The position numbers and the translations under genes were made by a program. Below the pieces are notes generated by a model. The model had not been told where the DNA came from. It saw nothing but the letters and a program-made list of their open reading frames with translations, and ran no database searches. From a virus, in the IMG/VR virus record IMGVR_UViG_3300035162_003726, positions 1 through 36,378 of that record: a stretch of DNA of 36,378 bases; one strand, written 5' to 3'. Shown piece by piece: positions 13,774 to 35,460 of this stretch; the first letter of the stretch is position 1, and the number at the start of each line of letters is the position of its first letter.

Positions 13774-14613
13774 ATGGCTACATATAGCAGTTATAAAAAA
13801 ATTACATCAGCAGGTATACCAGATGGGTCCATTACTAGAGACAAACTTGCACCTGGTGCAGGAGCGTGTCGTAAAACTCAATGGGTATATAATGCACGTG
13901 GCATGCAATGTCATATGTGTGCAAGAACCAGTGGCTGTTGTGAACAAGCGAATGGTAAATGTTGCTATTGGTGTGTTCCTGACAATGTTTATAAAGTAAC
14001 ATTTGAAATTTGGAGTGGTGGTGGTGGTGGCCCAGGTCATACATGCTGTAACTGTTGTTCGTTCGCCATTGGCGGCGCAGGCGGCAATTTCGCTACTAAA
14101 ACAATTAATACTAACCCAGGGTGTCAATATAGTGTATGCGCTGGTGGTTCATGGCCGTGTGGTAAGTCACATACTTGTAGTGCAGGTATGGGATGTAAAT
14201 CATATATTAATGGACACAATCTAAGTAACTTCTGCGCTACTGGTGCATGTGGTGGTTGGATGTGTAATGGCGATGCTTGGGGACAAAGACATGCCACAAG
14301 CGATTGTGCAAACTGTAATATATGCGGCATATTTGGAGCTGACTTTGGAATGATGGGCGGCATGGGCATGAAAGCTGGTACAACAACATGTAGATGTCAC
14401 GGACAAACTAGTTTCTCAGGAGTTGCGGCAGGTATTGGAACAATGGGTGGAACAGCTACTAACGAAGCTTGGTGCGCATGTGGGTGCCACATTAATTGGC
14501 CATCAGGCGGTGGTCAACCAGGAACATCTAGTTATTGTGGAAACTGGGCAAAATGTTGTGCTGGTGGATCAGGTCAAGGCGGATCAGGTTTAGTGAAGAT
14601 TACATTTGTATAA
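13774..14613 (+). CDS. Cysteine/glycine-rich fibre-tip-like protein, tandem paralogue A
   Basis: This 279-residue protein has 31 cysteines (about 11%). The N-terminus (residues 1-30, with DGSITRDKLAPGAG) resembles a fibre attachment segment. It is followed by VYNARGM, a Cys cluster (CCEQANGKCCYWCVP), then FEIWSGGGGGPGHTCC and GGAGG...PGCQYSVCAGG. The last two are the layout of the glycine-rich domain of phage adhesins, with cysteine in many places. CxxC and CC pairs (CCNCC, CANCNIC, CACGC) suggest disulfides or metal sites. It ends SGQGGSGLVKITFV. There is no signal peptide. Two further copies follow directly. A receptor-binding tip is inferred from the poly-glycine architecture and the neighbouring fibre genes. 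Confidence 0.75.
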   Translation: MATYSSYKKITSAGIPDGSITRDKLAPGAGACRKTQWVYNARGMQCHMCARTSGCCEQANGKCCYWCVPDNVYKVTFEIWSGGGGGPGHTCCNCCSFAIGGAGGNFATKTINTNPGCQYSVCAGGSWPCGKSHTCSAGMGCKSYINGHNLSNFCATGACGGWMCNGDAWGQRHATSDCANCNICGIFGADFGMMGGMGMKAGTTTCRCHGQTSFSGVAAGIGTMGGTATNEAWCACGCHINWPSGGGQPGTSSYCGNWAKCCAGGSGQGGSGLVKITFV

Positions 14614-14628
14614 GGTAAGGAAATAATA

Positions 14629-15465
14629 ATGGCAACATACGCAAGTTATAAGACACTAACAGCAGATAATTTCGACAGTAACAGTATTACTGCCGAAAAA
14701 CTAGGTGCTAGTGCCGGAAATAAGTACAGCACACAGTGGGTATATAATGCACGTGGCATGGCATGTCATGCGTGTGCTGACGCAGGTGATTGTTGTGAAC
14801 AAGCAAACGGCAAATGTTGTTATTGGTGCGTTCCGGCAGGAGCATCAAAAGTAATTTTTGAAATTTGGAGCGGTGGCGGTTCAGGATCAGGTGCGACATG
14901 TTGTAACAACTGTATGCACACAGCAGGCGGCGCAGGCGGAAACTATGCTGTTAAATCAATTAGTACGTGCCCGGGATGCCAATATAGTGTGTGTGCCGGC
15001 GGAACATGGCCGTGTTCAAAGGTACATACATGTGGTCCAGGTATGGGTTGTAAGAGTTATATTAATGGACATAACCTAAGTAACTTCTGTACTACAGGTG
15101 CATGTGGTGGTTGGATGTGTAATGGCGATGCGCACGGACCAAGACATACACAATCATGTGCAAACTGTTTAATTTGCGGCATATTTGGAGCAGACTTTGG
15201 AATTATGGGATCAACTGGCGTCAAAGGTGGTCAAGGACAATGCCAATGTAAATCAGCAGACTGGCAACAATCAGGAGCGGCACCCTTTGTAGCTAAACGT
15301 ACAGCAGGCTCAAACGCAGAAGCGTGGTGCAACTGTGCATGTTATGTTAACTGGCCAGCAGGTGGTGGACAATCAGCACAGAGTTCATATTGTGGAAACT
15401 GGGCAAAATGTTGTGCGGCTGGAAATATGGGTGGATCAGGAATGGTCAAAATAACATTCGCTTAA
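14629..15465 (+). CDS. Cysteine/glycine-rich fibre-tip-like protein, tandem paralogue B
   Basis: This 278-residue protein has 30 cysteines and the same architecture as paralogue A: N-terminal segment ending SITAEKLGASAG, VYNARGMACHAC, CCEQANGKCCYWCVP, a glycine-rich core (WSGGGSGSGATCC, GGAGGNY, QYSVCAGG), GIFGADFG and a terminal GGSGMVKITFA. It is the most divergent of the three. Its core reads GSGSG where A and C have GGGPG, its segment around residues 195-235 (QCQCKSADWQQSG) is unlike the others, and its AGNMGGSG end lacks the GSGQ of A and C. A ribosome-binding site (AAGGAAAT) precedes the ATG. Confidence 0.75.
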   Translation: MATYASYKTLTADNFDSNSITAEKLGASAGNKYSTQWVYNARGMACHACADAGDCCEQANGKCCYWCVPAGASKVIFEIWSGGGSGSGATCCNNCMHTAGGAGGNYAVKSISTCPGCQYSVCAGGTWPCSKVHTCGPGMGCKSYINGHNLSNFCTTGACGGWMCNGDAHGPRHTQSCANCLICGIFGADFGIMGSTGVKGGQGQCQCKSADWQQSGAAPFVAKRTAGSNAEAWCNCACYVNWPAGGGQSAQSSYCGNWAKCCAAGNMGGSGMVKITFA

Positions 15466-15480
15466 AAGGAAAGAGAACAA

Positions 15481-16320
15481 ATGGCAACATATGCAAGTTA
15501 TAAAAAAGTAGCAACAGACAGTATTGTAAATGGTACAGTAACTAGTGATGATATTGCACACGGAAATGGCAATAACCTAGGAGTACAATGGATCTACAAT
15601 GCACGTGGCATGCAATGTCATCAGTGTGCTAGACAATCAGGTTGTTGTGAACAAGCAAATGGTAAATGTTGTTATTGGTGTGTACCAGATGGTGCAAGTA
15701 CAGTAACATTTGAAGTTTGGAGTGGCGGTGGCGGTGGCCCAGGTCATACATGCTGTAACTGTTGTTCGTTTACTATTGGTGGTGCTGGTGGAAACTACGG
15801 TTCAAAGACAATTAATACAAGTCCAGGATGCCAATACAGTGTATGCGCCGGTGGTTCATGGCCATGTGGTAAGTCACACACTTGTGGTGCAGGTATGGGT
15901 TGTAAAAGTTATGTAAACGGATATAACTTATCGAATTTTTGTACAGTAGGCGGCTGTGGTGGTTGGATGTGTAATGGAGACGCATGGGGTCCAAGGCACA
16001 CTCATTTTAGCTGTGAAAACTGTAATATATGTGGAATTTTTGGCGCTGATTTTGGTGCAATGGGATCAACAGGATGGATTCACGGACACGGTAACTGTCA
16101 CTGTAACTATCCATTTTCGGGTTCAGGTTCACCGCCAAAGATCGGAAAAATGTCAACTAGTGCTACTAACGAAGCATGGTGTAACTGTGGATGCCATATT
16201 GAATGGCCATCAGGTGGCGGCATGCCAGGCGTTAGTTCATATTGTGGAAACTGGGCAAAATGTTGTGCAGGTGGATCAGGCCAGGGTGGTTCGGGTGTTG
16301 TTCGAATAACCTTTATGTAA
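15481..16320 (+). CDS. Cysteine/glycine-rich fibre-tip-like protein, tandem paralogue C
   Basis: This 279-residue protein has 30 cysteines and is closer to A than to B (WSGGGGGPGHTCCNCC is shared with A). The variable segment near residues 195-235 contains a His-rich GWIHGHGNCHCNY, which adds candidate metal ligands. The N-terminus (TVTSDDIAHGNGNN) differs from both siblings. It ends GSGQGGSGVVRITFM. It is followed, after a late-promoter motif, by a gene with a tail-assembly-chaperone-like C-terminus, which supports a fibre role for the array. Confidence 0.75.
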   Translation: MATYASYKKVATDSIVNGTVTSDDIAHGNGNNLGVQWIYNARGMQCHQCARQSGCCEQANGKCCYWCVPDGASTVTFEVWSGGGGGPGHTCCNCCSFTIGGAGGNYGSKTINTSPGCQYSVCAGGSWPCGKSHTCGAGMGCKSYVNGYNLSNFCTVGGCGGWMCNGDAWGPRHTHFSCENCNICGIFGADFGAMGSTGWIHGHGNCHCNYPFSGSGSPPKIGKMSTSATNEAWCNCGCHIEWPSGGGMPGVSSYCGNWAKCCAGGSGQGGSGVVRITFM

Positions 16321-16349: not shown

Positions 16350-17138
16350 ATGAGAATAATTAGTCAAGATTTTACTTACCCAATATGGGATGAGTGGAGA
16401 ACAAATAGTTTTACGCAAGGGCGTACTGGCACCTTTACATATGATGGTCCAGAATTTTTAACTTTTGAAGTACAAAATGATCCATCGACAGATGACTATG
16501 GAAAAGAATCAGGATGGTGCCTGTGGCGCAAGAATGATTTAGAAAGACCTGCTGGCGCTGATATCATGAGAGTAACAGTTGATTGCAAAGCCAATCCGTT
16601 ACTATGCGAAATTGGTAACGACACCGGCAAAGAATCAGGTGTCCAAATGCGGCGCGAAAGAGAATGGGAAGTTCTTTGGGACGCACCAGACGGATATCAA
16701 GACGTTGAATACACATCTAATATAGAACCAAGAGATGTCTATGACGAATGGAACATTACATGGGACTTTACAACTAATGAATTTGTATTAGGAGTTCATG
16801 ATTGGGCGGCAACAGGCGCAAACATGAATCTTACATGGGAAGAAGTTAGAGATGTAAGAGACGACGAATTACACGCTACTGATGCGAAAGTTGGTCAAAC
16901 AGATGCACCAGATTCGATACAACAAGTTTGGTTAGATTACAGACAGAGATTACGTGATCATCCAGCAGTTATGACTGCACGTGGATACGAACCGTGGCAA
17001 GCAGTTATGATGTTTCCAGTAGTACCAAAGGATATGAGAGACCCAAGTCCATCAAGTGATCCAGCAGATCCTTACAGAGATGGCGCATTTGCTGTTGATG
17101 TTGCAGTTGCAGGTCAAAAAGCCGCTGGTAAGAAATAG
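16350..17138 (+). CDS. Protein with tail-fibre assembly chaperone-like C-terminus
   Basis: This is a 262-residue protein. The C-terminal part from about residue 190 (VWLDYRQRLRDHPAV, then EPWQAVMMFPVVP) matches the pattern W..YRq.LRDlP...W.....P of the phage tail-assembly-chaperone family (Phage_tail_APC type). The first about 160 residues are Trp- and Asp-rich, predicted beta, and not recognised; they may be a structural domain or bind the client fibre. It lies directly after the three cysteine-rich fibre-tip-like genes, which are possible clients. The ATG is set by TAGGAG 9 nt upstream. A strong terminator follows. Confidence 0.65.
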   Translation: MRIISQDFTYPIWDEWRTNSFTQGRTGTFTYDGPEFLTFEVQNDPSTDDYGKESGWCLWRKNDLERPAGADIMRVTVDCKANPLLCEIGNDTGKESGVQMRREREWEVLWDAPDGYQDVEYTSNIEPRDVYDEWNITWDFTTNEFVLGVHDWAATGANMNLTWEEVRDVRDDELHATDAKVGQTDAPDSIQQVWLDYRQRLRDHPAVMTARGYEPWQAVMMFPVVPKDMRDPSPSSDPADPYRDGAFAVDVAVAGQKAAGKK

Positions 17139-17158: not shown

Positions 17159-17194
17159 AATCCCTGTATATTAGTTTATGCAGGGATTTTTTTT
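17159..17194 (+). terminator. Rho-independent terminator
   Basis: AATCCCTG at 17159-17166 pairs with CAGGGATT at 17181-17188 around a 14-nt loop, followed by a run of T up to 17194. It closes the fibre transcription unit and separates it from the sugar-modification operon. Confidence 0.85.
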
Positions 17195-17227
17195 GAACCA
17201 CGTTTACTGTCAGCAATCTATTCTCCC

Positions 17228-17235
17228 AATAAATA
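17228..17235 (+). promoter_or_regulatory. T4-like late promoter motif (AATAAATA)
   Basis: This NATAAATA core lies between the terminator at 17159-17194 and the first gene of the nine-gene modification operon, 22 nt before its start. It suggests the operon is transcribed late, with the structural genes. Confidence 0.55.
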
Positions 17236-17246
17236 TTTCTATACAC

Positions 17247-17253
17247 AGGAGAG
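17247..17253 (+). promoter_or_regulatory. Strong Shine-Dalgarno that sets a TTG start
   Basis: AGGAGAG lies 4 nt upstream of TTG at 17258. No in-frame ATG occurs nearby, and the N-terminal GT9-like motif begins within the first 20 codons, so the TTG is the likely start. Confidence 0.7.
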
Positions 17254-17257
17254 AACC

Positions 17258-18316
17258 TTGACACGCAAAAAAGCATATTTTATAAACGGTGGCGCCGGCA
17301 GAGTAGTTGCATCTATTCCTGCATTTGAAAAGTTATACGAAACAGACAAAGATTTTATTATTGTTTGTGAAGGAGGAATGGATTTTTATAAAGGACATCC
17401 TGTATTACACGAACTAGCATACGACAATTGGCATAAAAACTTGTTTAAAGATTACATTAAAGACAGGGATTGCTTCTCACCAGAACCATATAGAGTTTGG
17501 GAATACTATAATCAAAAATGTAGTTTAGCACAGGCATTTGATATTGCAATTAATAACGAAGGCCTTAGAGAGTTAACAGACCCAACAATACATATGAACA
17601 AGCAAGAAATGGTGCAAGGCTTTAAAGTCATTGAAGAAATTAAAGCAATGACTAAAAAAGACAAAGTTGTAGTATTCCAACCATTTGGTAGAACCGCAGA
17701 GAACATGGGAGACTTTGTAATTGATAGCACTTCTAGAAGTTTCCACCTCAACGATGTAATTCGTATTTGTAAAGACTTACGTGATGATTATGCTGTTGTT
17801 GTAATGAGCGAATTTCCAATTACAATCGAAGAAACTCCGACAGTGCCGATTGCAATTCCACAAATTAGTGATGTAAGAGTTTGGTCTAGCATTATTCAAA
17901 TTGCAGATCATTTTATTGGGTGCGATAGTTTAGGACAACATATGGCAAAAGCACTCGGTACTACGTGTACAAGTGTTATTGGCAGTACTTACCCTATTAA
18001 TATTTCATATCCTGATAGTCCAGACTTTGACATTGTTGATTTAGGTGAGGGTAGACGCAAGTTTAGTCCTATTAGACTTACAATGGAAGATGCAGTTGAA
18101 CGATTTAACGATGAAGTAATGGAATTAAACGATGAAAGTTTTAAGAAGATTATTACAAGTGTTCGCAAACGTTTAGGCAAGCCAAGATCATATACTGGTA
18201 ACTATGTTGCACAGCAACAAGAAGGTGAAGTTTGTCCTACACACGGAGTTGTCCATTCAAATGGTGTAACACACGGCTCTCAATCAGCACAAATTTTAGG
18301 CAGGACCGGAAAATAA
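17258..18316 (+). CDS. GT9 (heptosyltransferase)-like glycosyltransferase
   Basis: This 352-residue protein resembles ADP-heptose:LPS heptosyltransferases (glycosyltransferase family 9). The N-terminus has FINGGAGRVVASIPAFEKL, matching the G.GD.l...P....l motif. The C-terminal Rossmann half has HFIGCDSLGQHMAKALG from residue 218, then a GSTYP motif, where the sugar-nucleotide-binding H.IG.DsG..H.AaAlG.p...lfG.T.P is expected. The GT9 family transfers L-glycero-D-manno-heptose from ADP-heptose. Here the presence of GmhB, HldE and HldD genes supports heptose as donor, but the acceptor is unknown. An unusual C-terminal tail after about residue 310 contains C326, H329, H333 and H339. The start is TTG with a strong ribosome-binding site. 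The next gene starts immediately after the stop. Confidence is good for the fold, moderate for the sugar. Confidence 0.65.
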   Translation: MTRKKAYFINGGAGRVVASIPAFEKLYETDKDFIIVCEGGMDFYKGHPVLHELAYDNWHKNLFKDYIKDRDCFSPEPYRVWEYYNQKCSLAQAFDIAINNEGLRELTDPTIHMNKQEMVQGFKVIEEIKAMTKKDKVVVFQPFGRTAENMGDFVIDSTSRSFHLNDVIRICKDLRDDYAVVVMSEFPITIEETPTVPIAIPQISDVRVWSSIIQIADHFIGCDSLGQHMAKALGTTCTSVIGSTYPINISYPDSPDFDIVDLGEGRRKFSPIRLTMEDAVERFNDEVMELNDESFKKIITSVRKRLGKPRSYTGNYVAQQQEGEVCPTHGVVHSNGVTHGSQSAQILGRTGK

Positions 18317-18928
18317 ATGTCAGATCCGGGACAATTCTTAAATAGTTCATATACAGAACCGCTTGAGCTACCTAAAGCAGTATTGCCTAATCAAATTGAA
18401 ACTTGGATTATAGATGATATTTACTATCCTAAGTGGAAAAAGTTTTTAGCTTTATTTAAAGACGAAAATGAAGGACACAAAAATACAGGATTCAGTGGTG
18501 GCGTCCAATTTTATAAGCCTAATATGGATTATCCAACTGATATTGATCCTAGACTAGAATTTCAAAGTTTTATAAAATTTCAATTACAACAATTACCGAT
18601 TAATGTTGGGCAGTTTAAGAAAGCATGGGGTGTAAGATATCCAACGGGTGCATACAGTTTACTACATGATCATATACTAGGAAAGCAATTAACAGCTATA
18701 TTGTTTTTAGATGATTGTGACGCAGATATTAATCTTCCATATGCTGGAAATTTATTTACATTACAGCCTACAGAAGATAATACTATTCAATACCGTACAC
18801 ATCCTACACAAGCAGGTAAAATGGTAATTATGGACGGTAGGGTATTTCATGGAACATATCCTACACTTAATGAAAGAAAAGTATTTGTAGTTGATTTTAA
18901 TTATAATCCAACACCTACTTTTGACTAA
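18317..18928 (+). CDS. 2OG-Fe(II) oxygenase-like protein
   Basis: This 203-residue protein has a double-stranded beta-helix signature. H117-D118-H119 follow the strand WGVRYPTGAYSLL. A distal H178 lies in DGRVFHGTYP, with R187 nearby before a hydrophobic strand (KVFVVDF). That is the HxD/H...H...R layout of non-haem iron, 2-oxoglutarate-dependent dioxygenases, which hydroxylate or otherwise oxidise proteins or small molecules. The ATG directly abuts the stop of the GT9-like gene. It differs from the other oxygenases in the operon and the substrate cannot be predicted. The main uncertainty is whether the iron ligand pair is H117/H119 or H117 with another acidic residue. Confidence 0.6.
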   Translation: MSDPGQFLNSSYTEPLELPKAVLPNQIETWIIDDIYYPKWKKFLALFKDENEGHKNTGFSGGVQFYKPNMDYPTDIDPRLEFQSFIKFQLQQLPINVGQFKKAWGVRYPTGAYSLLHDHILGKQLTAILFLDDCDADINLPYAGNLFTLQPTEDNTIQYRTHPTQAGKMVIMDGRVFHGTYPTLNERKVFVVDFNYNPTPTFD

Positions 18929-18973
18929 TAATCGAACTAATAAAATTAAAACATAACAAAGGAAGATAAAACT

Positions 18974-20803
18974 ATGACGCAGTGGATTGGAGCAATTACA
19001 AGAGGACATAACGGCGGCGCTGTTCTTCTTAAAGACGGAGAGATTGTGTTTGCAATCGAAGAAGAACGACTAACACGTAAAAAATATGACGGTGGGCCGC
19101 TAGCCGCAATGATTAAATTTTTAGACTACACTGATAAACTTGATTATTTGGTAGTTGCACACACGCAACCATTAGCAGATTCAAGTAGAATTGATTTTAG
19201 TGGTGGAGACATGTATACTGGTCTAGCACGTAAGTTAGGATTAATTGATCGTTCAGACAGCGCATACTCGCAAGATGGAAAATACGAACATAGACAAGTA
19301 GTTGATCTATCTAGTGTACATCATAAGTTACATGCGGCTTGTGCATTTTATAGATCAGGTATGGAAACAGCAACAGCAGTAGTTGTTGATGGTGCTGGAA
19401 CATTTATACCTATGAATATCAATACTGGTATTTTTAACGATGAATTTATGACATGGGAAACTGAAAGTATTTTTAATTGTGCATATCCCGATGCATTTAA
19501 AACATTGTATAAACATCAAGGCGGAAATGGCCCGTTCCCAAGTACATGTATTCCGTATATTCCGTCAGATAGAGAAGGTGAAGAAGGATATCACGAACTA
19601 GTACTTGACGATACAGCAGGTATTGTAAAAGCATATGAAGCAGTAACACAATATTGTGGCTTCCAACCAATTGAAGCAGGAAAAACTATGGGACTTGCTC
19701 CATATGGCAAACCTAATAGTAATATTCCAACAATATATACAGATGGCAATGGTGGCAAGTGGAGAACAAGTGATAGAAATGTTGTTGTTCCAACATATCC
19801 TAATGCGGCTGTTATTAATGAAGGGAAATATGATTATCTTGACACATCAGAAGACGTAATTAATAGTAAAGTTGATTTAACTACACTAGAAAACCGTCGA
19901 GACTTAGCATATGCTGTACAAACAGAATCACAACAAGAAGTTTTAAGTCTTATTATGAAAGCAGTTGAAATGAGTGGCAACAAAAATGTTGTACTAAGTG
20001 GTGGCTATGCACTAAACTGTGTTGCTAACTATTGGTATCTTGATAAGCTACAAAAAGAAGGTATTACTTTGTATGTAGAGCCAGTTAGTAACGATGCAGG
20101 CACTGCAATCGGTGCGGCAATGATGATGTACCATCAAACAACTAAAGATACTAAAGTACGTCCGTTAGCAGAAACAATCTACGAAGGATTTGAATATCAT
20201 TATAGCGCAGAAGAAATTAAAGAAGTTGCTGACAAATACGGAGCAACAGTTGTAGAAGCAGATAATAAAAAAGTTGTTGATCTAATTCGTAATAAAAACA
20301 TTGTAACAATGTTTCAAGGAAAAAGTGAAAACGGCCCACGTGCATTAGGTAACAGAAGTATTATGTATGATCCAACTGACCCGAACGGTAAAGATCATGT
20401 TAATAGTGTTAAGCGTAGAGAATATTTCCGTCCATTTGCAGGAACTATCCTTGCTGAACATGCAAGTGAGTGGTTTGATATGCGAGGACTGGAAGAAAGT
20501 CCGCATATGATGTATGCAATGGATTGCCAAGAAGGTAAACAAGATTTAATTCCTAGTATTATACATGTTGATGGAACATGTCGCATACAAACTGTAACAA
20601 GAAAACAAAATAAGCACTATTATGATATTATTACTGAATTTTATGCGCAAACCAATGTGCCAATTATCTTTAATACTAGTTTTAACTTAGGTGGTGAGCC
20701 GTTAGTAGAAACACTAGATGATGCAATTCGTACACTTTACAATAGTGAAATGGAATACTGCTATTTGCCAGAATATAGTGTAATGATCGAAATGAAGAAC
20801 TAG
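18974..20803 (+). CDS. Carbamoyltransferase, NodU/CmcH family
   Basis: This 609-residue protein, a normal length for the family, transfers a carbamoyl group from carbamoyl phosphate (via carbamoyl-AMP) to a hydroxyl of a sugar or other small molecule. The N-terminal domain shows GHNGGAVLL near residue 11, EEERLTR near 29-35, the metal/nucleotide-binding HHKLHAACAF near 116-125 and VVVDGAG near 137-142. Further on are GGNGPFPS, KTMGLAPYGKP and LSGGYALNCVAN. The C-terminal domain shows GKSENGPRALGNRSI, REYFRPFAG and NTSFNLGGEPLV. All family hallmarks appear intact. The ATG follows AAAGGAAG. Its TAG overlaps the GTG of the next gene. Sitting beside a GT9-like enzyme, it is likely to carbamoylate a glycan. 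Confidence 0.9.
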   Translation: MTQWIGAITRGHNGGAVLLKDGEIVFAIEEERLTRKKYDGGPLAAMIKFLDYTDKLDYLVVAHTQPLADSSRIDFSGGDMYTGLARKLGLIDRSDSAYSQDGKYEHRQVVDLSSVHHKLHAACAFYRSGMETATAVVVDGAGTFIPMNINTGIFNDEFMTWETESIFNCAYPDAFKTLYKHQGGNGPFPSTCIPYIPSDREGEEGYHELVLDDTAGIVKAYEAVTQYCGFQPIEAGKTMGLAPYGKPNSNIPTIYTDGNGGKWRTSDRNVVVPTYPNAAVINEGKYDYLDTSEDVINSKVDLTTLENRRDLAYAVQTESQQEVLSLIMKAVEMSGNKNVVLSGGYALNCVANYWYLDKLQKEGITLYVEPVSNDAGTAIGAAMMMYHQTTKDTKVRPLAETIYEGFEYHYSAEEIKEVADKYGATVVEADNKKVVDLIRNKNIVTMFQGKSENGPRALGNRSIMYDPTDPNGKDHVNSVKRREYFRPFAGTILAEHASEWFDMRGLEESPHMMYAMDCQEGKQDLIPSIIHVDGTCRIQTVTRKQNKHYYDIITEFYAQTNVPIIFNTSFNLGGEPLVETLDDAIRTLYNSEMEYCYLPEYSVMIEMKN

Positions 20804-21405
20804 TGACACATCAATCTATATATTCTGTACCGGTATATAAAGCAAAGTTAGCCAACCATGTAGATATACAAGCGGATTTTACTGAAGTACTCAAAGGCGA
20901 TGAGTACTTTAGTGAAGTTCCAACATGGAATAGTAACGTAGATACAACTTTCGGTAATAGAGATGCTGATAGCTTACCTTGGCAACAGTTTATTAAGTCG
21001 GCTATTGCAGGTCTTAATGAGTACTTGGAAATTTACGAACTAGATCTTCCAAGAGATTACAGGATTGAATGTTGGCTCAATAGATACACCAATGGGCAAT
21101 TCCAAGAAGTTCACAATCATGCTGGAGAATCTATTATTAGTTGTGCATATATGATGCACACGCCTACTAATAGCGGAAACTTTACATTTTACAAAAATGC
21201 ATATGATTATTTCCATCAATCAGACTTACCAAAGTTAACTACACAGCCTTTTAAGTTTAACAATAGAATAACACCCCCACTAGACGAAGGTGACATTATA
21301 TATTTTCCAAGCACATTAGAACATTATGTTTCGCCTAACAATAGCACAGAAGTAAGAGCAACAATTAGTGCTAATTTTATTATTAAGGAACGTATAAATG
21401 AATAA
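20803..21405 (+). CDS. Putative 2OG-Fe(II) oxygenase (2OG-FeII_Oxy_5-like)
   Basis: This 200-residue protein has WLNRYTNGQFQEVHNHAG, with H104-N105-H106, a distal H174 in DIIYFPSTLEHYV and R185 near the end. These match the marine-phage-common putative oxygenase family with HxH...FPS.l.H.v....R. The start is GTG at 20803, sharing a base with the carbamoyltransferase stop (TAGTG), which implies coupled translation. It overlaps the next gene by 8 nt. It is likely a non-haem iron dioxygenase; the substrate is unknown. Confidence 0.7.
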   Translation: MTHQSIYSVPVYKAKLANHVDIQADFTEVLKGDEYFSEVPTWNSNVDTTFGNRDADSLPWQQFIKSAIAGLNEYLEIYELDLPRDYRIECWLNRYTNGQFQEVHNHAGESIISCAYMMHTPTNSGNFTFYKNAYDYFHQSDLPKLTTQPFKFNNRITPPLDEGDIIYFPSTLEHYVSPNNSTEVRATISANFIIKERINE

Positions 21406-22117
21406 AAATACAATTAACGAAGTAGAAACATTTGATATTAACCGAGACTTTGATGCAAGGCTATGGAGATTTGGACAACATAAAGTTCCAGTATTAGTAG
21501 TTGATAATTTTTATAAGAATCCAGATATGGTGCGACAACTTGCATTAGATATTCCAGCATCAACTAATAAACGTATTAGAGGAGGCAATCCTGCCGAGAG
21601 AGTAAATGCATTTTATGAGTTAAGCGGTATGGCTTGGGCATTTGATCAATTGAGTAGAACATATTTTCCAGAGATTATGGAACATAAACCACAAGAATAC
21701 ATGCAAAATAGTTTTATGAATGCAACCTTTATGGTTAATGTTATGCAGTCAGATAAGTTGCCGCCACTTGTGCCGCATCAAGATAATCCTTCAGGAACAA
21801 ATCTTGCTAGTACAATTTACTTAAACAATGCTAACGAGTGTAACGGCGGCACTAGCTTTTACGAGTTTGGAGGCGAAACATGCTTTACTGACCGAGTACA
21901 ACTAATAAACGGAGATATCGGAATGGATGTTACTGGTACTACTAAAGTAACAAAATACATAACTGATAGTTCACATGATTGGAAAATGATTGGAATGGTT
22001 CCAATGCAGTATAATAGAATGGTATTGTACAATCAATCCTTGCTACACTCGGCATATGTAAAGCCAAGCATGTTTACAGATAAAAATTATAGAATTAATC
22101 AACAATTCTTTATATAG
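21398..22117 (+). CDS. DUF6445-like protein with 2OG-oxygenase-type HxD...H motif
   Basis: This is a 239-residue protein. Its N-terminal VLVVDNFYKNPDMVRQLAL is typical of the DUF6445-type proteins that often neighbour tryptophan-halogenase genes in bacteria. It then has PHQDNPSGTNLASTIYLN (H127, D129), GGTSFYEF and a distal H217 in RMVLYNQSLLHSAYV, ending YRINQQFF. H127/D129/H217 would make a standard iron-binding triad with R232 as the 2-oxoglutarate anchor. It lies two genes before the halogenase here, consistent with that association. The exact reaction is unknown. Confidence 0.65.
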   Translation: MNKNTINEVETFDINRDFDARLWRFGQHKVPVLVVDNFYKNPDMVRQLALDIPASTNKRIRGGNPAERVNAFYELSGMAWAFDQLSRTYFPEIMEHKPQEYMQNSFMNATFMVNVMQSDKLPPLVPHQDNPSGTNLASTIYLNNANECNGGTSFYEFGGETCFTDRVQLINGDIGMDVTGTTKVTKYITDSSHDWKMIGMVPMQYNRMVLYNQSLLHSAYVKPSMFTDKNYRINQQFFI

Positions 22118-22128
22118 GAGAAAAATAA

Positions 22129-22704
22129 ATGAAAGATAATTTTGACGGACTTGAAGAATACTCGAATGTTTTTCCGATTGATTGGTGTAAGCAAATAATT
22201 AAACGCTTTGAAGAAATGTCTGCCAGTCAATTAACAAACCTTGAAAGCAGTACAAAGAATCAAGACGAAAGAATTATTATGGATTGGGCAAATCATAATT
22301 CAAGATACCATGCAGACGATGACTTGTGTCGTTATTTCTATGCTACTCTTAATAAAGTGTACACAGAAAAGTATCGTACTAAGTATGAAAGTTTAGGTAA
22401 CGTTTTACAGCATTCTCCTAAAGGAATGAGTATACAAAAGACTATGCCGCACCAAGGTTATCATGCTTGGCATTGTGAAAGCGCATCACTAAGTTCGTGT
22501 TCGCGGGTACTTGCTTACACAGTTTACTTAAATGCTGTAGAAGAAGGCGGCGAAACAGAATTCCTATACCAAGGAGTTAAAGTTAAGCCCGAACCAGGCA
22601 AGCTAAGTATTTTCCCTACAGCATTTACCCATCCACATCGCGGCAATCCTATTTACAAAGGAAGTAAGTACATTGTAACGGGATGGTATACATTAGATGA
22701 ATGA
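22129..22704 (+). CDS. 2OG-Fe(II) oxygenase, prolyl-hydroxylase-like phage family
   Basis: This 191-residue protein contains GYHAWHCESAS (H115, E117), VYLNAVEEGGETEF, KPEPGKLSIFPTAFTHPHRG (H168 and H170) and GSKYIVTGWY. This is the layout of the P4H-like oxygenases common in marine T4-like phages. Glu replaces the usual Asp of HxD, which is tolerated in the superfamily. Its ribosome-binding site is TAGGAG before an ATG 11 nt after the previous stop. It overlaps the halogenase gene by 8 nt, so the two are probably coupled. Confidence 0.75.
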   Translation: MKDNFDGLEEYSNVFPIDWCKQIIKRFEEMSASQLTNLESSTKNQDERIIMDWANHNSRYHADDDLCRYFYATLNKVYTEKYRTKYESLGNVLQHSPKGMSIQKTMPHQGYHAWHCESASLSSCSRVLAYTVYLNAVEEGGETEFLYQGVKVKPEPGKLSIFPTAFTHPHRGNPIYKGSKYIVTGWYTLDE

Positions 22705-24160
22705 CATGAAAATAGCAGTAGTAGGCGGCGGTACAGCAGGATTTGTATCAGCATTAATTCTAAAAACCACTTATCCAAACTATCAAGTAGACATTATCCG
22801 ATCAGAAAAAATTGGAACTATTGGAGTTGGTGAAGGGACAACAGAACATTGGTCAGTATTTATGGATCATGTTGGCATACAGACTGCACAACTTATTAAT
22901 GAATGTGATGCAACATTCAAAACAGGAATTATGTTTGAAGATTGGGGAGATAAACCATATCTTCAAAGTGTACATTCTCCTTTTGTGTTTGAACATTTAG
23001 GATTACCTGCCGCATTTGCAAAACTTATTGGTGAACAATGCAATCCAAGAGACATGACGGGTGATTATCTTTGGAATAACAATGTACCATTTAATAAATT
23101 TATAGATGAGCGTCCAAACGATACTGGAGTTAGTCAATATCACTTTAATACACAAAAATTAAATAATTTTTTAACTAAGTTTGCAATTGAAAAAGGATGT
23201 AATGTATTTGATGATGAAATAGTAGATGTAGCAGTCAACACCCAAGGTATAGATTACATTACAAGTAAAACTAAAACATATAATTATGATTTTTATATTG
23301 ATTGTACAGGATTTTCTAGACTATTAATTGGAAAGCTGGGAGCAACTTGGAATAGTTATAGTGATCATTTGCTAATGAAGGAAGCTATTGTATTTCCTAC
23401 TCCCCAAGAAGAAGAAACTCCGTTATGGACTCTAGCTAAAGCAATGGATGCTGGTTGGATGTTTCGTATACCGGTACAAGGGCGTAAAGGAAACGGGTAT
23501 ATTTTTGACAGTAACTTTATTACAGCAGAACAGGCACAAATAGAAGTTGAAAAATATTTAGGACATAGTATTGACGTAGCAAAACATATTAAATTTGACC
23601 CAGGTGCAGTTGATCGTCCTTGGATTAAAAATGTTTGTGCTATTGGCCTTAGTGCTAGTTTTGTAGAACCTTTAGAAGCAAGTAGTATTGGTACTAGTAT
23701 CAATCAAGCATTCTTATTAGCTCGTCGTATGATTAATTATAATGAACAAAGTATTAATCGATATAACATAGAAGTTAATGCTATAATGGAAAATGTTAGA
23801 GACTTTATTGCATTGCACTATGTTAGCAATAGGCGTGATACGCCGTTTTGGAACAAAGTAGCAAGTACTCCATTGCCACATACACTACAAGAAAATTTAA
23901 AAATGTGGAAGACGCGATTGCCCATTGCTGATGATTTTACATCATATACAAAGAAAGTGTTGTTTAACGAATATAATGTTGCACTAGTAATGCATGGATT
24001 AGATTTGTTTGATACTGATAGCATTTTAACACAATATAATATGTTGCCCGATGAAGTACTAATGCAAATTGATGAGATTTGTAAGCACAAAATAAATTTT
24101 GATCGATCAAAAACAATCCCACATAAGTTAATGCTAGAGTTATTAAGGCATCTAGTATGA
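22697..24160 (+). CDS. Flavin-dependent halogenase (tryptophan halogenase family, VirX1-like)
   Basis: This 487-residue protein uses reduced FAD and oxygen to form hypohalous acid, which a lysine passes to the substrate. The FAD site GGGTAG is at residues 10-15, followed by GTIGVGEGTT. The catalytic lysine is K75 in ATFKTGIMFEDW, matching K79 of PrnA. The W.W.IP halogenase signature reads WMFRIP (254-259), with Phe for the second Trp. FVEPLEASS (322-330) places E327 at the position of PrnA E346. Length is in the normal range. Phage halogenases are known: VirX1 of cyanophage Syn10 prefers iodide. No flavin reductase gene is visible, so reduced flavin would come from the host. The gene overlaps its neighbours on both sides (8 and 4 nt). 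Confidence 0.88.
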   Translation: MNDMKIAVVGGGTAGFVSALILKTTYPNYQVDIIRSEKIGTIGVGEGTTEHWSVFMDHVGIQTAQLINECDATFKTGIMFEDWGDKPYLQSVHSPFVFEHLGLPAAFAKLIGEQCNPRDMTGDYLWNNNVPFNKFIDERPNDTGVSQYHFNTQKLNNFLTKFAIEKGCNVFDDEIVDVAVNTQGIDYITSKTKTYNYDFYIDCTGFSRLLIGKLGATWNSYSDHLLMKEAIVFPTPQEEETPLWTLAKAMDAGWMFRIPVQGRKGNGYIFDSNFITAEQAQIEVEKYLGHSIDVAKHIKFDPGAVDRPWIKNVCAIGLSASFVEPLEASSIGTSINQAFLLARRMINYNEQSINRYNIEVNAIMENVRDFIALHYVSNRRDTPFWNKVASTPLPHTLQENLKMWKTRLPIADDFTSYTKKVLFNEYNVALVMHGLDLFDTDSILTQYNMLPDEVLMQIDEICKHKINFDRSKTIPHKLMLELLRHLV

Positions 24161-25017
24161 GGGTATTTGCATTTGGATGCAGTCTAACACAGTATTTTTA
24201 TCCCACTTGGGCAGATGTATTAATACATCATTACGTAGAAGAAGGTGCCACTGTTGGAGAGAACTGGGGACGTAGTGGTGCAGGTAATCAATACATATCA
24301 ACCCGACTATGGGAAGCAAACACTGAACACAAATTTAATAAAGACGATATCATCTTACTACAGTGGTCTAGTTTTTTCCGCGAAGACAGATATCATATGG
24401 GCCGAGGTTGGTGGACACCAGGTAACTTTAACGCTAATAATACTGATGAAGCATTTATTGTAAACAATTATCGTTATGAAAATTCTTGGGACTATGCAGA
24501 TCCTATATGGGCAACAATGAGAGACTGTGCATTAATAAGCAGTACACACAAAGCATTAGAAAATATTGGATGTAATGTTATATCTACTGGCTTTAGAGAG
24601 CCAACAGAGGGCTGGAACGAACTTAGTAAAGAATTTAATACTAAAAACAAATATTTAGAATTAGAAGATTGTAGAGCAATACTAGAAAAATACAAAGATG
24701 ATATTAAAACTACTTGTCCACCAATACTTAATGCACTAGGCTTTGGAGTCGACGACGAGTTTTTTAAAACAAGACCAACAAGTGTGCCTAGTAAAAATCC
24801 AGAACATTTACATATGAGTCAGCCCGAAGTGCATCCACTCACACACGAAGCCGCAAATTTTATACAAGAACACGTTTGCAAATTAAATAATAAAACTTTA
24901 GAGTTTGTTGAAACATGGAAGCAAACATTAACAGCCACTGATGATATTTTACTTTTTGAACTAGATTGGTTTAATAAAGAACAAGTAGGCTGGTCAGATG
25001 ATAGATGGAGACCGTAA
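24157..25017 (+). CDS. SGNH-hydrolase-like protein
   Basis: This 286-residue protein shows the blocks of SGNH/GDSL hydrolases. FAFGCSLTQ has the candidate nucleophile S9, GRSGAGNQYI has N44, and a C-terminal HPLTHE (about residues 227-232) supplies a catalytic-type histidine. The family removes or adds acyl groups on sugars and lipids; a deacetylase or O-acyl-transfer role on a glycan is plausible but not shown. There is no signal peptide, so it acts in the host cytoplasm. The ATG overlaps the halogenase stop (ATGA). The Trp- and Asn-rich middle is not recognised. Confidence 0.55.
   Translation: MRVFAFGCSLTQYFYPTWADVLIHHYVEEGATVGENWGRSGAGNQYISTRLWEANTEHKFNKDDIILLQWSSFFREDRYHMGRGWWTPGNFNANNTDEAFIVNNYRYENSWDYADPIWATMRDCALISSTHKALENIGCNVISTGFREPTEGWNELSKEFNTKNKYLELEDCRAILEKYKDDIKTTCPPILNALGFGVDDEFFKTRPTSVPSKNPEHLHMSQPEVHPLTHEAANFIQEHVCKLNNKTLEFVETWKQTLTATDDILLFELDWFNKEQVGWSDDRWRP
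25006..25010 (+). promoter_or_regulatory. Shine-Dalgarno that decides the gmhB-like start
   Basis: TGGAG lies 8 nt before ATG at 25019. An in-frame ATG at 24998 exists but would add seven residues, overlap the upstream gene and lack a ribosome-binding site; family similarity begins after 25019. Confidence 0.6.
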
Positions 25018-25018
25018 C

Positions 25019-25582
25019 ATGAGTACACCGGTAATTGGATTAGACAGAGATGGTACTATTAATGTAGATATTGGAACATATGTAACTCGCCCTGAGCAGT
25101 TTACACCAATTGAAGGTAGTTTAGAAGCTGTAAAAATGATTAGAGATAAGGGGTATGACGTTGTTATCCTTACTAATCAAGGTGGGATCAGTAAAGGAAT
25201 AATGGACGAAGTTGATGTTGACCTAGTACATAATCATATGCTTAAATTATTAGGCGACATTGGATGCAAGAGCATTAATGGCCTTTATTATTCAACCACT
25301 AGTCTTAAAGACGATATTTACGCAAAGCCTAATGTAGGAATGTTTAAACGTGCGGCCGCAGAAGTAGGATGTGATTGGAAAAACGGTTTGTATGTTGGAG
25401 ATAAAATTAGTGACCTTAAGGCCGCAGTAAAAGCAAAAGCAAGACCTGTGTTACTACGTACAGGATACGGAGCAGAAACTGTTAAGAAGTTAAATACGTT
25501 TGCAAACAAAGATCTTAAAAAGCAGACTGAAATTTTTGATAATTTATATCAATTTGCCCATAGTTTAGTAGATATATCATAA
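25019..25582 (+). CDS. gmhB: D-glycero-D-manno-heptose 1,7-bisphosphate phosphatase-like HAD protein
   Basis: This 187-residue HAD phosphatase closely follows GmhB. It has the catalytic LDRDGTINVD (motif I, first Asp nucleophile), TNQGGISKG (motif II) and VGDKISDLKAAVKA (motif IV). GmhB removes the C7 phosphate of heptose bisphosphate in ADP-heptose synthesis. The zinc-binding Cys/His loop of E. coli GmhB is missing: the region reads YYSTTSLKDDIYAKPNVGM, with no cysteine. Histidinol-phosphate phosphatases share this fold, but HldE and HldD genes in the same window favour the heptose pathway. It is the last gene of the operon, 1 nt after the previous stop. Confidence 0.75.
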   Translation: MSTPVIGLDRDGTINVDIGTYVTRPEQFTPIEGSLEAVKMIRDKGYDVVILTNQGGISKGIMDEVDVDLVHNHMLKLLGDIGCKSINGLYYSTTSLKDDIYAKPNVGMFKRAAAEVGCDWKNGLYVGDKISDLKAAVKAKARPVLLRTGYGAETVKKLNTFANKDLKKQTEIFDNLYQFAHSLVDIS

Positions 25583-25613
25583 AAATCTGTACTGTTGCAT
25601 ATCTTTATAAAAC

Positions 25614-25621
25614 GATAAATA
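25614..25621 (+). promoter_or_regulatory. T4-like late promoter motif (GATAAATA)
   Basis: The NATAAATA core lies in the 57-nt gap after the gmhB-like gene, 18 nt before the ATG at 25640, with TGGAGC at 25627-25632 as ribosome-binding site. It restarts late transcription for the second structural block. Confidence 0.65.
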
Positions 25622-28208: not shown

Positions 28209-31200
28209 ATGGCTAAGAAAAAGATTTATAATTACAAGTTTTATCCAGGTATTGGAGTAAACGACAACACGTATCCGAATGCATGGGCATTGTTAGATGC
28301 AAACATAGCATTTATTAAAGCGGAGGTGGCGGCTTGGATCGCACAGCAAGTAGCAGACGGGGCAGACGGCTTTAGTGGGTATGTTTACGATCAAGCAAGA
28401 TGTGAACGAGACACAGGGTACAACCTTGTTGCTTGGGCACACGATTTACGCTACACTGGTAACGAAGAAACAACAAGAATTTCAAAAACTTATTGGGAGC
28501 AAGACGTTGCTCAAGTCGACGGTGACAGAATAGCAGAAATTAGAGCTAAAGAATATACTCGTGACTTACTTGTTAACCATGTTTTTAATAACTCGCCACA
28601 GTCTACACCTTATCAAGGTAACATTGCTCAAGTAATTGACGGAACTAAGACTGTTGAAAACGCGGCTCCTGGACGTATTCAACTACTGTCAGGAATTGTT
28701 ATTAGTGTACTAACAACAGGCACAAGTGCATTACCGACCTTTGAGCGCAAAGGATTAGGTCATGTTAGATTCCAAGGTAACTATGATGCTAGTGACTTGT
28801 TAATTATAACAAACACTACTAAATCAGAAGTTATTTACAACTTTACAGATGTTCTAAAAGGCGGTAAAGTAACAAGAATTGATGACGTTACACCTAGAGA
28901 TTCAAGTGGATATGTTCCAAAGTATGATAGTGTGTCGGCTAATGAAAATGCTGACTTAGACTTTCCAAAATACTTACAAGTTACTGATGCAGTAACAATT
29001 ATTGACTTAAACTACAATACTTCGACGCACGTAGAATCAGATGAATTACAAATCTTTATTGATAGCCCAGAGCAAAGAACAAGACCATATGACTTTGGTA
29101 CTGATGCTATTGAACGTATGCGTATTGCACCTCCATTGTCAATGCTTGACGCTGACTTTGAGTACGGTCTACAGCCTACTAAATGGTCAGCTATTGGTAT
29201 GATGCGCGGATATCCAAGTGTGTACGAGCTACCAGGCACTGATACACAGGTGCTAACAGTACAAACAGATGCATCGTCTGGCACAGCTGGCATTGGATCA
29301 AGTTTAATTACAGTTACAACAGTTGGTGCCCATGGATTCTTAGCAGGTACCCCAATTACAATTAAAGCACTTGAAGATAGTGTTGGCGGCGCGGCACGTG
29401 GTGAAGGATCATTTATTATTCAATCCATTCCAACTAACACTACATTTACATTTTATGCTAAAGCAAAAGTTGGTACAACTAATGGCCAAATTCTTTCAAC
29501 AACGTATACACAGCTAAGACAGGGTGCATTTTATACAGGAGCAAGTGTTGGACAGCCGGCATTTACTTTGTTTAGTAATGGTACAAACGGTACCATGAGT
29601 TTAGCACTTACTGCACAAATTAGTGAGAACAGACTTGCATTTACAGGAGATGTTCCAGAAGTTGGTGCTCCGATTGTTAACGGAGCGTTACCAACAGGAA
29701 CACAAGTTACAGCTATTTCAAGTACACCAGACGGTAACGCACTACCACTAAACTTAACACAAGATATTAGTATTGGAAACACTGACATTGTAGTATCAAG
29801 CACAACAGGTATTGTTGTAGGACTAGCGGCAGACAACGGAAGTGGTGATGCTATATTTGTTAACAACATTTCAGGAACCACTCTTAGTATGAGTGGTGCA
29901 TTTACTGGAGCAGTTACAAGAAACACAGAAACCTATACAGGTGTAAGTGGTACTATTGCTACTCCTGCAGGTCTAAACGCACAATTTACAATTTCAAAAG
30001 GTGGTACAACATATACTATTGATGCAGTAACACAAGCAGGTAGTGGATATGTAATAGGTGACATACTACTAGTTACGGGTGACAATTTAGGCGGAACTAC
30101 TCCGACTAACGATGTATCAATAACTGTAAGTACAATTAATGGATCAGGTGGCATAACAGGTGGAACTATTGCAGGTACTGCACTTAGTGGAACAATTAGT
30201 TATACTGGCCCTACAAAAACATATATAAACGCAGGCGGAACAATTAACTCTGCGCAGTTTGATATTAACTTTGAAGGCTCTGGATTTAGTTCAGTTGATA
30301 TTAGTTCACCAAACGACAGTACAGGTTATGCAATTAACGACAGACTAAGAATTGAAGGTAGCCAGCTATTGGGCGGCACAGGACAAAACGGTAACGTAGC
30401 CAGTGGAGGCAATGACTTTGTTGGTAAAGTTACAGGAGTTGCCGCAGGCGGATCAATTAGTTCAATAGTTCCAGATAACAGTGGATGGAGTATAGGTACA
30501 CCACCAAGTCAATCAAGAAGTTATAGCTTTGGTGGGTCAAACTTAGCATTTACAGGTGGATCAGGTAGCGCCCTTGAATTTGGAATTAATGTAAACGGAA
30601 CAACGTATACATACCAGCAATCGGGTAATAATGGAACAGGTTATACAACAGCAGACACACTTGTTTGTGCTGGTAATTTATTAGGCGGTGCAACTCCAGC
30701 AAACGATTTATATCTAAGAGTAGTATCAGTTGACGGCGTAGGCGCTATTACTGATGTTCGTGTAGAAGGAAGTGATGTATCATCAGTACCAGCGGCATTT
30801 AACGGTGGTGCGTTTGAATCAAAGGTAATGGCTAATTTAGCAGGCGCAAGTGCAACGTTTAATGTTGCTAATGACGGTTCTACATTTACTACAACAGTTA
30901 CAGCAAATGGTACAAACTATCATGTTGGTCAAACTTTTGTAATAGCAGGTACAGAAATTGGCGGCACAACTACAGCAAACGATGCAACTATTACAATTGA
31001 TAGTGTTAATGGCGAAACTGGTGCTATTGGTACTGTAAGTATTGCAGGTACTGCTCCGGCACTACCAACAGTCTTTACAGGTCAAGCAGGTAGTAACGTA
31101 GCACATGCAGGTACAAGTGCTACATTTGATATTACTAGAACATCAGGCACACTAACTACCACAATCGGCTCAAGCGGTAGTGGATATAAAGTTGGTAACA

Positions 31201-34218: not shown

Positions 34219-34623
34219 CTATTCTTGATCTATAATTTCCATTGCTGGCTTTATCTTTTGGCTATCACCTGGACCAATGCGATAATTATCTTCTACACTA
34301 TCAGGAGTGCTTACTTCAGTAATACTACTTCCAGCTTCCATACATACTAACTGATGCGGCATTAATGGCGGATTATGCCATACTGAACCTTCTACAAGTT
34401 CTTGACTTTTGTACTCAGCAGTATCAGTGTCAATATAATTAAGTAAGAATCTGCCATTGTTTACAAACCAAGACTCGTCCTTTTCCCTATGGAAATGCAT
34501 ACTAAACTTAGCGCCTACTCGATTAAACACCATAATCTTTCCACAGTATTTTTCGTTAGTGGCCCAAATTAATTCGTAACCCCAGCCTTTATCTACCTTA
34601 CCTTCTAGTCTAGTCGGTTGCAT
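34219..34623 (-). CDS. Cupin-domain protein (sugar-isomerase-like)
   Basis: This 134-residue single-domain cupin has motif 1 intact: G37, H43-F-H45, E50 and G57 follow G(X)5HXH(X)4E(X)6G exactly. H90 in PPLMPHQLV supplies the second-motif histidine, so a divalent metal site is expected. The opening WGYELIWA and CGKIMV resemble the C-terminal cupin of type II mannose-6-phosphate isomerases and sugar-nucleotide-associated cupins. The ATG overlaps the end of the hldD-like gene by 14 nt, so it is co-transcribed with hldE and hldD. It may isomerise or bind a sugar phosphate in that pathway; this is inference. Confidence 0.65.
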   Translation of the reverse strand: MQPTRLEGKVDKGWGYELIWATNEKYCGKIMVFNRVGAKFSMHFHREKDESWFVNNGRFLLNYIDTDTAEYKSQELVEGSVWHNPPLMPHQLVCMEAGSSITEVSTPDSVEDNYRIGPGDSQKIKPAMEIIDQE

Positions 34624-35437: not shown

Positions 35438-35460
35438 TCTCACCTCTTTTATATATTATA

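Follow-up and report, generated by a model that had tools for sequence, protein, structure and literature searches.

The subject of this study is a run of nine genes, g1 to g9, of a marine phage, in a 36,378-nucleotide stretch of viral DNA (IMG/VR virus record IMGVR_UViG_3300035162_003726, positions 1 to 36,378), and we refer to this whole 36 kb stretch as the window. The baseplate, fibre and tail genes of the window are T4-like, and functions are assigned throughout from sequence. An earlier note had claimed nine overlapping open reading frames (ORFs) at 17228-25582, whose products would build a carbamoylated, halogenated or hydroxylated heptose decoration on the phage fibres or, alternatively, on the host surface. 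All nine ORFs were found there on the plus strand, tightly packed over 17258-25582, with TTG as the start codon of g1 (ORF 17258-18316) and with overlaps of 1, 8, 8, 4 and 20 nt between neighbouring ORFs. The predicted genes and the signals around them are the following.

17159-17188, plus strand: intrinsic terminator closing the fibre-tip block (12 bp stem then U-tract, minimum free energy -17.5, z -4.24)
17227-17235, plus strand: late-promoter-type motif CAATAAATA at the operon head (ATAAATA in 33/39 distinct g1 upstream regions)
17258-18316, plus strand: g1, GT9-fold, ADP-heptose transferase-like, with Arg15 replacing the catalytic Asp (Foldseek, alignment)
18317-18928, plus strand: g2, 2-oxoglutarate (2OG)-Fe(II) oxygenase-like, with an HDH motif (phrog_81, 1.8e-8)
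18974-20803, plus strand: g3, NodU/TobZ-type O-carbamoyltransferase (carbamoyltransferase C and N Pfam domains, 5e-58 and 2e-27; catalytic motifs)
20803-21405, plus strand: g4, 2OG-Fe(II) oxygenase (2OG-FeII_Oxy_5, PF13759, 4e-16)
21398-22117, plus strand: g5, DUF6445, oxygenase-like, with an HxD motif (HQD) (PF20043, 4e-21; phrog_1644)
22129-22704, plus strand: g6, prolyl-hydroxylase-type 2OG-Fe(II) oxygenase (2OG-FeII_Oxy_3, PF13640, 4e-12; phrog_61, 4.5e-40)
22697-24160, plus strand: g7, flavin-dependent halogenase (Trp_halogenase, PF04820, 3e-95)
24157-25017, plus strand: g8, SGNH-like, putative esterase or acyltransferase (FGCS block, C-terminal ExHP)
24998-25582, plus strand: g9, GmhB-type heptose bisphosphate phosphatase (PRK08942, 6e-39; PDB 4pnh GmhB, 3e-22)
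25613-25621, plus strand: late-promoter-type motif opening the next structural block (25/25 distinct upstream regions)

The terminator and the late-promoter-like motif that had been noticed ahead of g1 are thus both present. We counted ATAAATA within 60 nt upstream of each gene over distinct loci. The motif stood before g1 in 33 of 39 loci, before the second fibre gene in 15 of 15, before the gene of a chaperone-like protein in 26 of 29 and before the next block after the operon in 25 of 25. It was never found before g2, g3, g4, g6, g8 or g9 and was rare before g5 (1/44) and g7 (5/44). Because the motif is conserved before g1 and the fibre genes, while the internal genes seldom or never have it upstream, g1 to g9 form one late operon with the promoter type of the fibre genes. 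It is the positional conservation that bears this out, not the frequency of the motif, since counts of TATAAATA over the whole window were at chance level, without enrichment, and only the positional test was informative.

We also determined whether the gene order is kept elsewhere. In the close relatives of the window it is stable: of 58 IMG/VR loci that run on for 7.6 kb or more beyond g1, 37 kept the full g2 to g9 order, and 51 kept it when no more than the loss or non-detection of g2, g3 or g6 is allowed. The co-occurrence on which the earlier note had staked its reading is therefore conserved beyond chance and not random. Parts of that note had to be redrawn. The near-invariant core is only g1 and the carbamoyltransferase, whereas the oxygenases, the halogenase and the SGNH-like protein vary between phages; and the nine genes, though real and in one operon, are not the whole system, which extends to HldD, HldE and cupin genes at 34219-36378.

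The g1 product belongs to phrog_8954 (3e-142). It matched no Pfam family at E 0.1, the heptosyltransferase family included, gave only a weak RfaQ match in NCBIfam (2.6e-4), and its profile found zero relatives among PDB sequences, so that its assignment rests on fold and motifs. Its AlphaFold2 (AF2) model, with a mean predicted local distance difference test score (pLDDT) of 74, was compared with known structures by Foldseek. The best matches were the GT9 structure 3tov (2.9e-9), TibC (4rb4, 1.3e-8) and WaaC (2gt1, 1.7e-6), with WaaF also matched; probability was 1.00, E ranged from 2.9e-9 to 1e-5 and the template modelling (TM) score from 0.43 to 0.58, as for a GT-B fold. The TibC structure is that of a protein heptosyltransferase with ADP-heptose. 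In the C-lobe, GCDSxGQH of g1 aligns with D-T-G-x-x-H of WaaC, in agreement with the ADP-binding-type motif D-[ST]-x-x-x-H. The G-D motif of the N-lobe, on the other hand, is G-R in every g1 homologue readable there, where WaaC, WaaF and WaaU have Asp.

Thus g1 shares fold and C-lobe motif with WaaC and WaaF but differs from them by Arg at the position of the WaaC catalytic residue, which we take to be Asp13, and by the lack of other LPS (lipopolysaccharide)-assembly genes around it. With the TibC/AAH autotransporter heptosyltransferases (PMC4358343; catalytic residue of TibC, Asp110) it shares the GT-B fold and a presumed acceptor that is an adhesin-type protein encoded next door. However, the GT core of g1 begins at residue 4, leaving no N-terminal beta-barrel, and its homologues do not have four conserved C-terminal cysteines as in the iron finger of TibC/AAH; the presumed acceptor of g1 is Cys-rich, whereas that of TibC/AAH is a Ser-modified beta-helix. 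Because the Asp, the iron finger and the barrel are missing, we call g1 GT9-fold and file it neither as WaaC nor as a bacterial autotransporter heptosyltransferase. On the basis of the model, g1 has the GT9 fold and probably works like a heptosyltransferase, as had been proposed, though its activity is not certain because the catalytic Asp is missing. A cellular origin of g1 was considered and rejected, since matches on cellular-genome contigs look like misbinned phage contigs: the cassette lies on contigs (L249-L258) filed as Euryarchaeota, Neomarinimicrobiota, Rhodobacteraceae, Woesearchaeota and other metagenome-assembled genomes, several of which carry phage fibre genes and which are probably misbinned phage DNA.

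Directly upstream of the operon, behind the long fibre genes, lies an array of three paralogues of 278-279 aa with about 11% Cys and 16-20% Gly, followed by the chaperone-like gene.

13774-14613, plus strand: CGR1, predicted Cys/Gly-rich fibre-tip protein, 279 aa, 11.1% Cys, 19.4% Gly (phrog_4205, 1.6e-31)
14629-15465, plus strand: CGR2, second array copy, 10.8% Cys (65% identical to CGR1)
15481-16320, plus strand: CGR3, third array copy, 10.8% Cys (73% identical to CGR1)
16350-17138, plus strand: fibre assembly chaperone-like protein (Phage_tail_APC, PF16778, 8e-7; phrog_9740 and tail fibre assembly phrogs)

The top match of an AF2 model of the array protein was the fibre of cyanophage Pam3 (7ypx, 2.7e-6), followed by the Bxb1 tail tip and glycine-rich ALK domains; these matches are in line with a fibre tip. 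Array proteins carry 26-32 cysteines each, and 21 Cys columns are invariant among 108 unique sequences. Pure disulfide pairing was rejected, given that sequences with an odd number of cysteines are about as numerous as those with an even number and that the variable columns show little joint loss, single cysteines being lost without an obvious partner.

We asked how closely the array is tied to g1. When loci were collected by the array, g1 was present in all 55 that had enough downstream sequence. When they were collected by divergent g1 (mostly about 40% identical to the query; reduction at 80% identity left 44 loci), the carbamoyltransferase lay downstream of g1 in 42 of 44. Of these loci, 38 had at least 4.5 kb upstream, and a protein of at least 5% Cys was encoded within 5 kb upstream of g1 in 35 of them, against a chance expectation of about 20% of loci (binomial p ~7e-22); in the remaining three the array was convergent, just downstream. 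In P-SSM2, S-CAM1 and a relative of 262 kb, the array proteins are the only ones both Cys- and Gly-rich in this way, the proteome median being about 1% Cys, and the cyanophages S-H38, S-SM2 and P-TIM68, which lack g1, have no such proteins. In the INPHARED phage records, an array match was accompanied by g1 in every record but one, a 69.6 kb contig of the single-cell genome AG-345-E02, which carries g1 on another contig.

The linkage extends to phages without the rest of the cassette. In the unrelated Aeromonas phage HJ05, g1 lies directly behind a fibre gene whose product has a Cys-rich C-terminus, and in Vibrio phage D505 it lies directly before a fibre gene encoding a Cys cluster. The D505 fibre (L169:7747-13017), which adjoins the g1 homologue, has 23 of its 41 cysteines at residues 101-400. 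Neither phage gave a carbamoyltransferase or HldD match. The hosts of HJ05 and D505 are expected to make ADP-heptose themselves, and the lack of both matches would be expected if these hosts supply that sugar. A fibre tip and g1 are therefore a unit common to phages of very different lineages. The HJ05 g1, used as a query against viral contigs, gave no match.

A second block, on the minus strand at the end of the window, contains predicted genes of ADP-heptose synthesis.

34219-34623, minus strand: cupin accompanying HldD (Cupin_2, 2.5e-3)
34610-35443, minus strand: HldD-like ADP-glyceromanno-heptose 6-epimerase (TIGR02197, 2.8e-63; PDB E. coli HldD 1eq2, 5e-40)
35461-36378, minus strand: HldE-like bifunctional heptose kinase/adenylyltransferase (PfkB, 4e-13; CTP_transf_like, 2e-17; GAGD motif and HIGH-type sequence), cut by the window edge, the N-terminal part of the kinase lying beyond it

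The scores of HldD (214 of 274.6 bits) and of g9 as GmhB (133.5 of 178 bits) are below the curated equivalog cut-offs. The matches to PRK08942 and to GmhB in the PDB nevertheless agree with the GmhB claim made for g9. Together with g9, the predicted enzymes of this block cover all ADP-heptose steps but GmhA, and we assumed that the host GmhA supplies the missing isomerase step. A candidate phage isomerase was rejected: the cyanophage "phosphoheptose isomerase" is a capless HAD phosphatase of about 110 aa (DIDGTIC, TAR, DDKG) without a SIS domain. To judge by their sequences, the isomerase annotation of T4-GC 306 (copies at L009:18024-18368, L001:20703-21038, L007:17922-18245 and L005:15815-16138), and likely that of phrog_1238, looks wrong.

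The remaining families of the operon were largely those that had been named. The carbamoyltransferase, halogenase and DUF6445 assignments and the three 2OG-Fe(II)-like proteins (g2, g4, g6) were all borne out by the matches listed above. In g3, which also matches 7xb6 (4e-51) and TobZ (1e-43) in the PDB, both domains are present with the motifs GH..GA, HH..HA, GPRALGNRS and N.SFN..GEP. In g7, GxGxxG, the active-site Lys region and FVEPLE are present, WxWxIP reads WMFRIP (the second Trp changed to Phe), and the PDB matches include PrnA, 5uao and VirX1 (6qgm, 8e-42). For the SGNH claim the signs in g8 are mixed: FGCS and ExHP are conserved in its homologues, but the Asn block is not clear and no family was matched, nor any PDB entry in searches that included a profile search, so that g8 rests on motifs only. 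It had no match in 50,697 INPHARED phage records and was matched in 80 IMG/VR loci. In the window g8 follows the halogenase; in some distant loci (L252, L400 and L408), g1 and the carbamoyltransferase have a relative of it between them.

Flavin halogenases act on aromatic rings, and for this reason a protein residue, Trp or Tyr, is a likelier place for the halogen than the sugar, which speaks against the halogenated heptose that had been imagined. In syn9 (L334), HTVC008M (L335) and Sf-CH11 (L336), halogenases lie among fibre or neck structural genes beside 2OG or "minor coat protein" genes; syn9 has two between fibre-assembly genes and 2OG/"minor coat protein" genes, a layout like that of the window. 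Such positions may point to virion proteins as the substrates. In S-PM2 and Syn1, the halogenase genes have different neighbours. Other phage halogenases are 23-43% identical to that of the window, and VirX1 of cyanophage Syn10, which is of the same flavin halogenase family but distant, was characterised without a native substrate being given (PMC8407142). Reviews count cyanophage halogenases as auxiliary metabolic genes (PMC10452541).

The core of the system is not new, contrary to the earlier note, which knew of no such phage system. P-SSM2, S-SSM7, S-CAM1, S-CAM3 and Sf-FS3 share the array, g1, carbamoyltransferase, heptose kinase, adenylyltransferase (detected in S-CAM3 by profile, not by annotation), small HAD phosphatase, HldD and a cupin homologue near it, annotated as LPS or hypothetical genes. 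In the cyanomyovirus cluster T4-GC 302-308 (P-SSM2, S-SSM7, S-CAM1, S-CAM3), the order is fibre, array, g1, carbamoyltransferase, then heptose genes, cupin and HldD. The window differs in adding four oxygenase-like genes, the halogenase, the SGNH-like gene and a true GmhB, in having its heptose genes split off to the minus-strand block, and in belonging to a T4-like lineage without psbA. In P-SSM2, S-SM2 and S-SSM7, Sullivan et al. 2010 noted a set of seven "LPS genes" that occur together, without deciding between functional genes and stuffer DNA (PMC3037559). The LPS of marine Synechococcus is without heptose (PMC4515613), so that the cyanophage versions are without an obvious LPS acceptor.

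We consider a cyanobacterial host unlikely for the window phage. The psbA gene was absent from its relatives of up to 262 kb, whose records may be incomplete, while the same search found it in S-SSM7, S-CAM1 and P-SSM2; for two relatives, the closest gp23 proteins are those of Sinorhizobium phage Phosso and Vibrio phage 2.275.O. By these sequence comparisons the window phage probably infects a heterotroph and, if so, the cassette has moved between lineages.

Taken together, these data lead us to favour, with some confidence though well short of certainty, a late-expressed cassette that decorates the virion by placing heptose on the fibre tips and then tailoring it. Host GmhA would isomerise host sedoheptulose 7-phosphate, and phage HldE, the GmhB-type phosphatase and HldD would then yield ADP-heptose. 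We infer that g1 would use it, moving heptose in the cytoplasm onto the Cys/Gly-rich fibre-tip proteins encoded next to it, either ahead of fibre assembly or in its course; Ser/Thr as the glycosylated residue is a conservative guess. The g3 enzyme would then carbamoylate hydroxyls of the sugar, and the 2OG oxygenases, halogenase and SGNH enzyme, in sets that vary between phages, would add hydroxyl, halogen and acyl groups, mainly to fibre residues. It is the decorated tip that would come into contact with the host receptor, the environment or competing phages. Of the decoration first proposed, the heptose-type, carbamoylated and fibre-tied parts gain support from HldD, HldE and cupin in the window, from the g1 fold and from the linkage of g1 to the array.

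Several points weigh against this reading. The fibre tip as acceptor is deduced from gene linkage, the model of the array protein has low confidence (pLDDT 55), g1 has an invariant Arg instead of the GT9 catalytic Asp, and a GmhA (SIS_2) match was found in none of the relatives or cyanophages tested. In S-SM2 and P-TIM68, which have neither g1 nor array, heptose genes are part of large sugar clusters, so that phage heptose genes can serve other ends. In these clusters the HldD, HldE, HAD and cupin genes lie beside transketolase and alcohol dehydrogenase genes, which marks a second use of phage heptose genes.

A bolder form, possible but unlikely in our judgement, is that g1 represents a new class of protein S-heptosyltransferase, with Arg in place of the base Asp and cysteine thiolates as acceptors, so that carbamoylated heptose would coat the tip cysteines. 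The high conserved Cys content, the odd and even counts, the single Cys losses and the Arg-for-Asp change make the S-linkage a real option. If true, it would explain 10% Cys in proteins made in the cytosol as well as these counts and losses. Alternatively, the cysteines may be metal ligands, or disulfides may form between them after release.

The host surface, the earlier note's second choice, is a rather improbable target. There, carbamoylated heptose would be placed late on host LPS or capsule, which would spare progeny from being caught on debris or keep rival phages out. The GT9 enzymes WaaC and WaaF do act on LPS, the heptose genes of S-SM2 and P-TIM68 lie in large sugar clusters, and pelagiphage sugar genes were interpreted as host-surface modifiers (PMC7029224), the usual reading of such genes in cyanophages and pelagiphages. 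However, g1 shares its late promoter with the fibre genes and stays tightly linked to fibre tips even in phages that are unrelated, the Pfam hits of the operon include no ligase, flippase or export gene, and the LPS of Synechococcus, for the cyanophage relatives, is heptose-free. Because of the late timing and the fibre linkage we favour the virion over the host surface.

Quite improbable is also a g1 that has the GT9 fold without transferring heptose, being a chaperone or a different transferase acting on Cys-rich fibres, while the heptose genes act elsewhere. The invariant Arg at the catalytic Asp position, the empty profile search of PDB sequences, and HJ05 and D505, which have g1 but no HldD or carbamoyltransferase match, would fit it. 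Yet g1 retains the ADP-binding-type motif D-S-x-G-x-H, distant phages repeatedly pack heptose genes into the same operon, and the two exceptions are expected on hosts that make ADP-heptose. Finally, carbamoyltransferases and 2OG enzymes are also known in phage DNA modification, but hypermodification of a small molecule or DNA base by the oxygenases, carbamoyltransferase and glycosyltransferase is very improbable, because the oxygenases are of the P4H/2OG_Oxy_3, Oxy_5 and DUF6445 types, neither TET/JBP nor nucleotide enzymes are among the operon's Pfam hits, and the late promoter and fibre linkage argue otherwise.

Virion decoration by phage enzymes would tie heptose and carbamoyl genes to one definite target, the exceptional Cys/Gly-rich fibre tips. 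If true, the cyanophage "LPS genes", whose function has been open since 2010 with stuffer DNA as one option (PMC3037559), would gain a function, and the receptor-binding tips of abundant marine phages would be glycoproteins finished by the phages themselves, so that protein sequence alone would not suffice to read host range and adsorption. Phage halogenases and 2OG oxygenases, which are abundant, have so far had no assigned target. In chloroviruses, virus-encoded glycosyltransferases modify virion proteins. The idea is the same there and in mycobacteriophage, but enzymes and targets differ from those of the window cassette, and we know of no ADP-heptose or carbamoyl group in either. For mycobacteriophage, a virus-encoded glycosyltransferase was suggested to modify virion proteins (PMC11256854). 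Our literature search, which covered few subscription journals, found no paper tying cyanophage fibres to cysteine-rich proteins and none that connects the glycosylation of phage fibres with ADP-heptose.

The window also encodes a protein of 1980 aa (28209-34151), located between the baseplate connector region and the heptose block and with no Pfam match; related proteins of S-CAM1 and S-CAM3 carry the annotation "virion structural protein".

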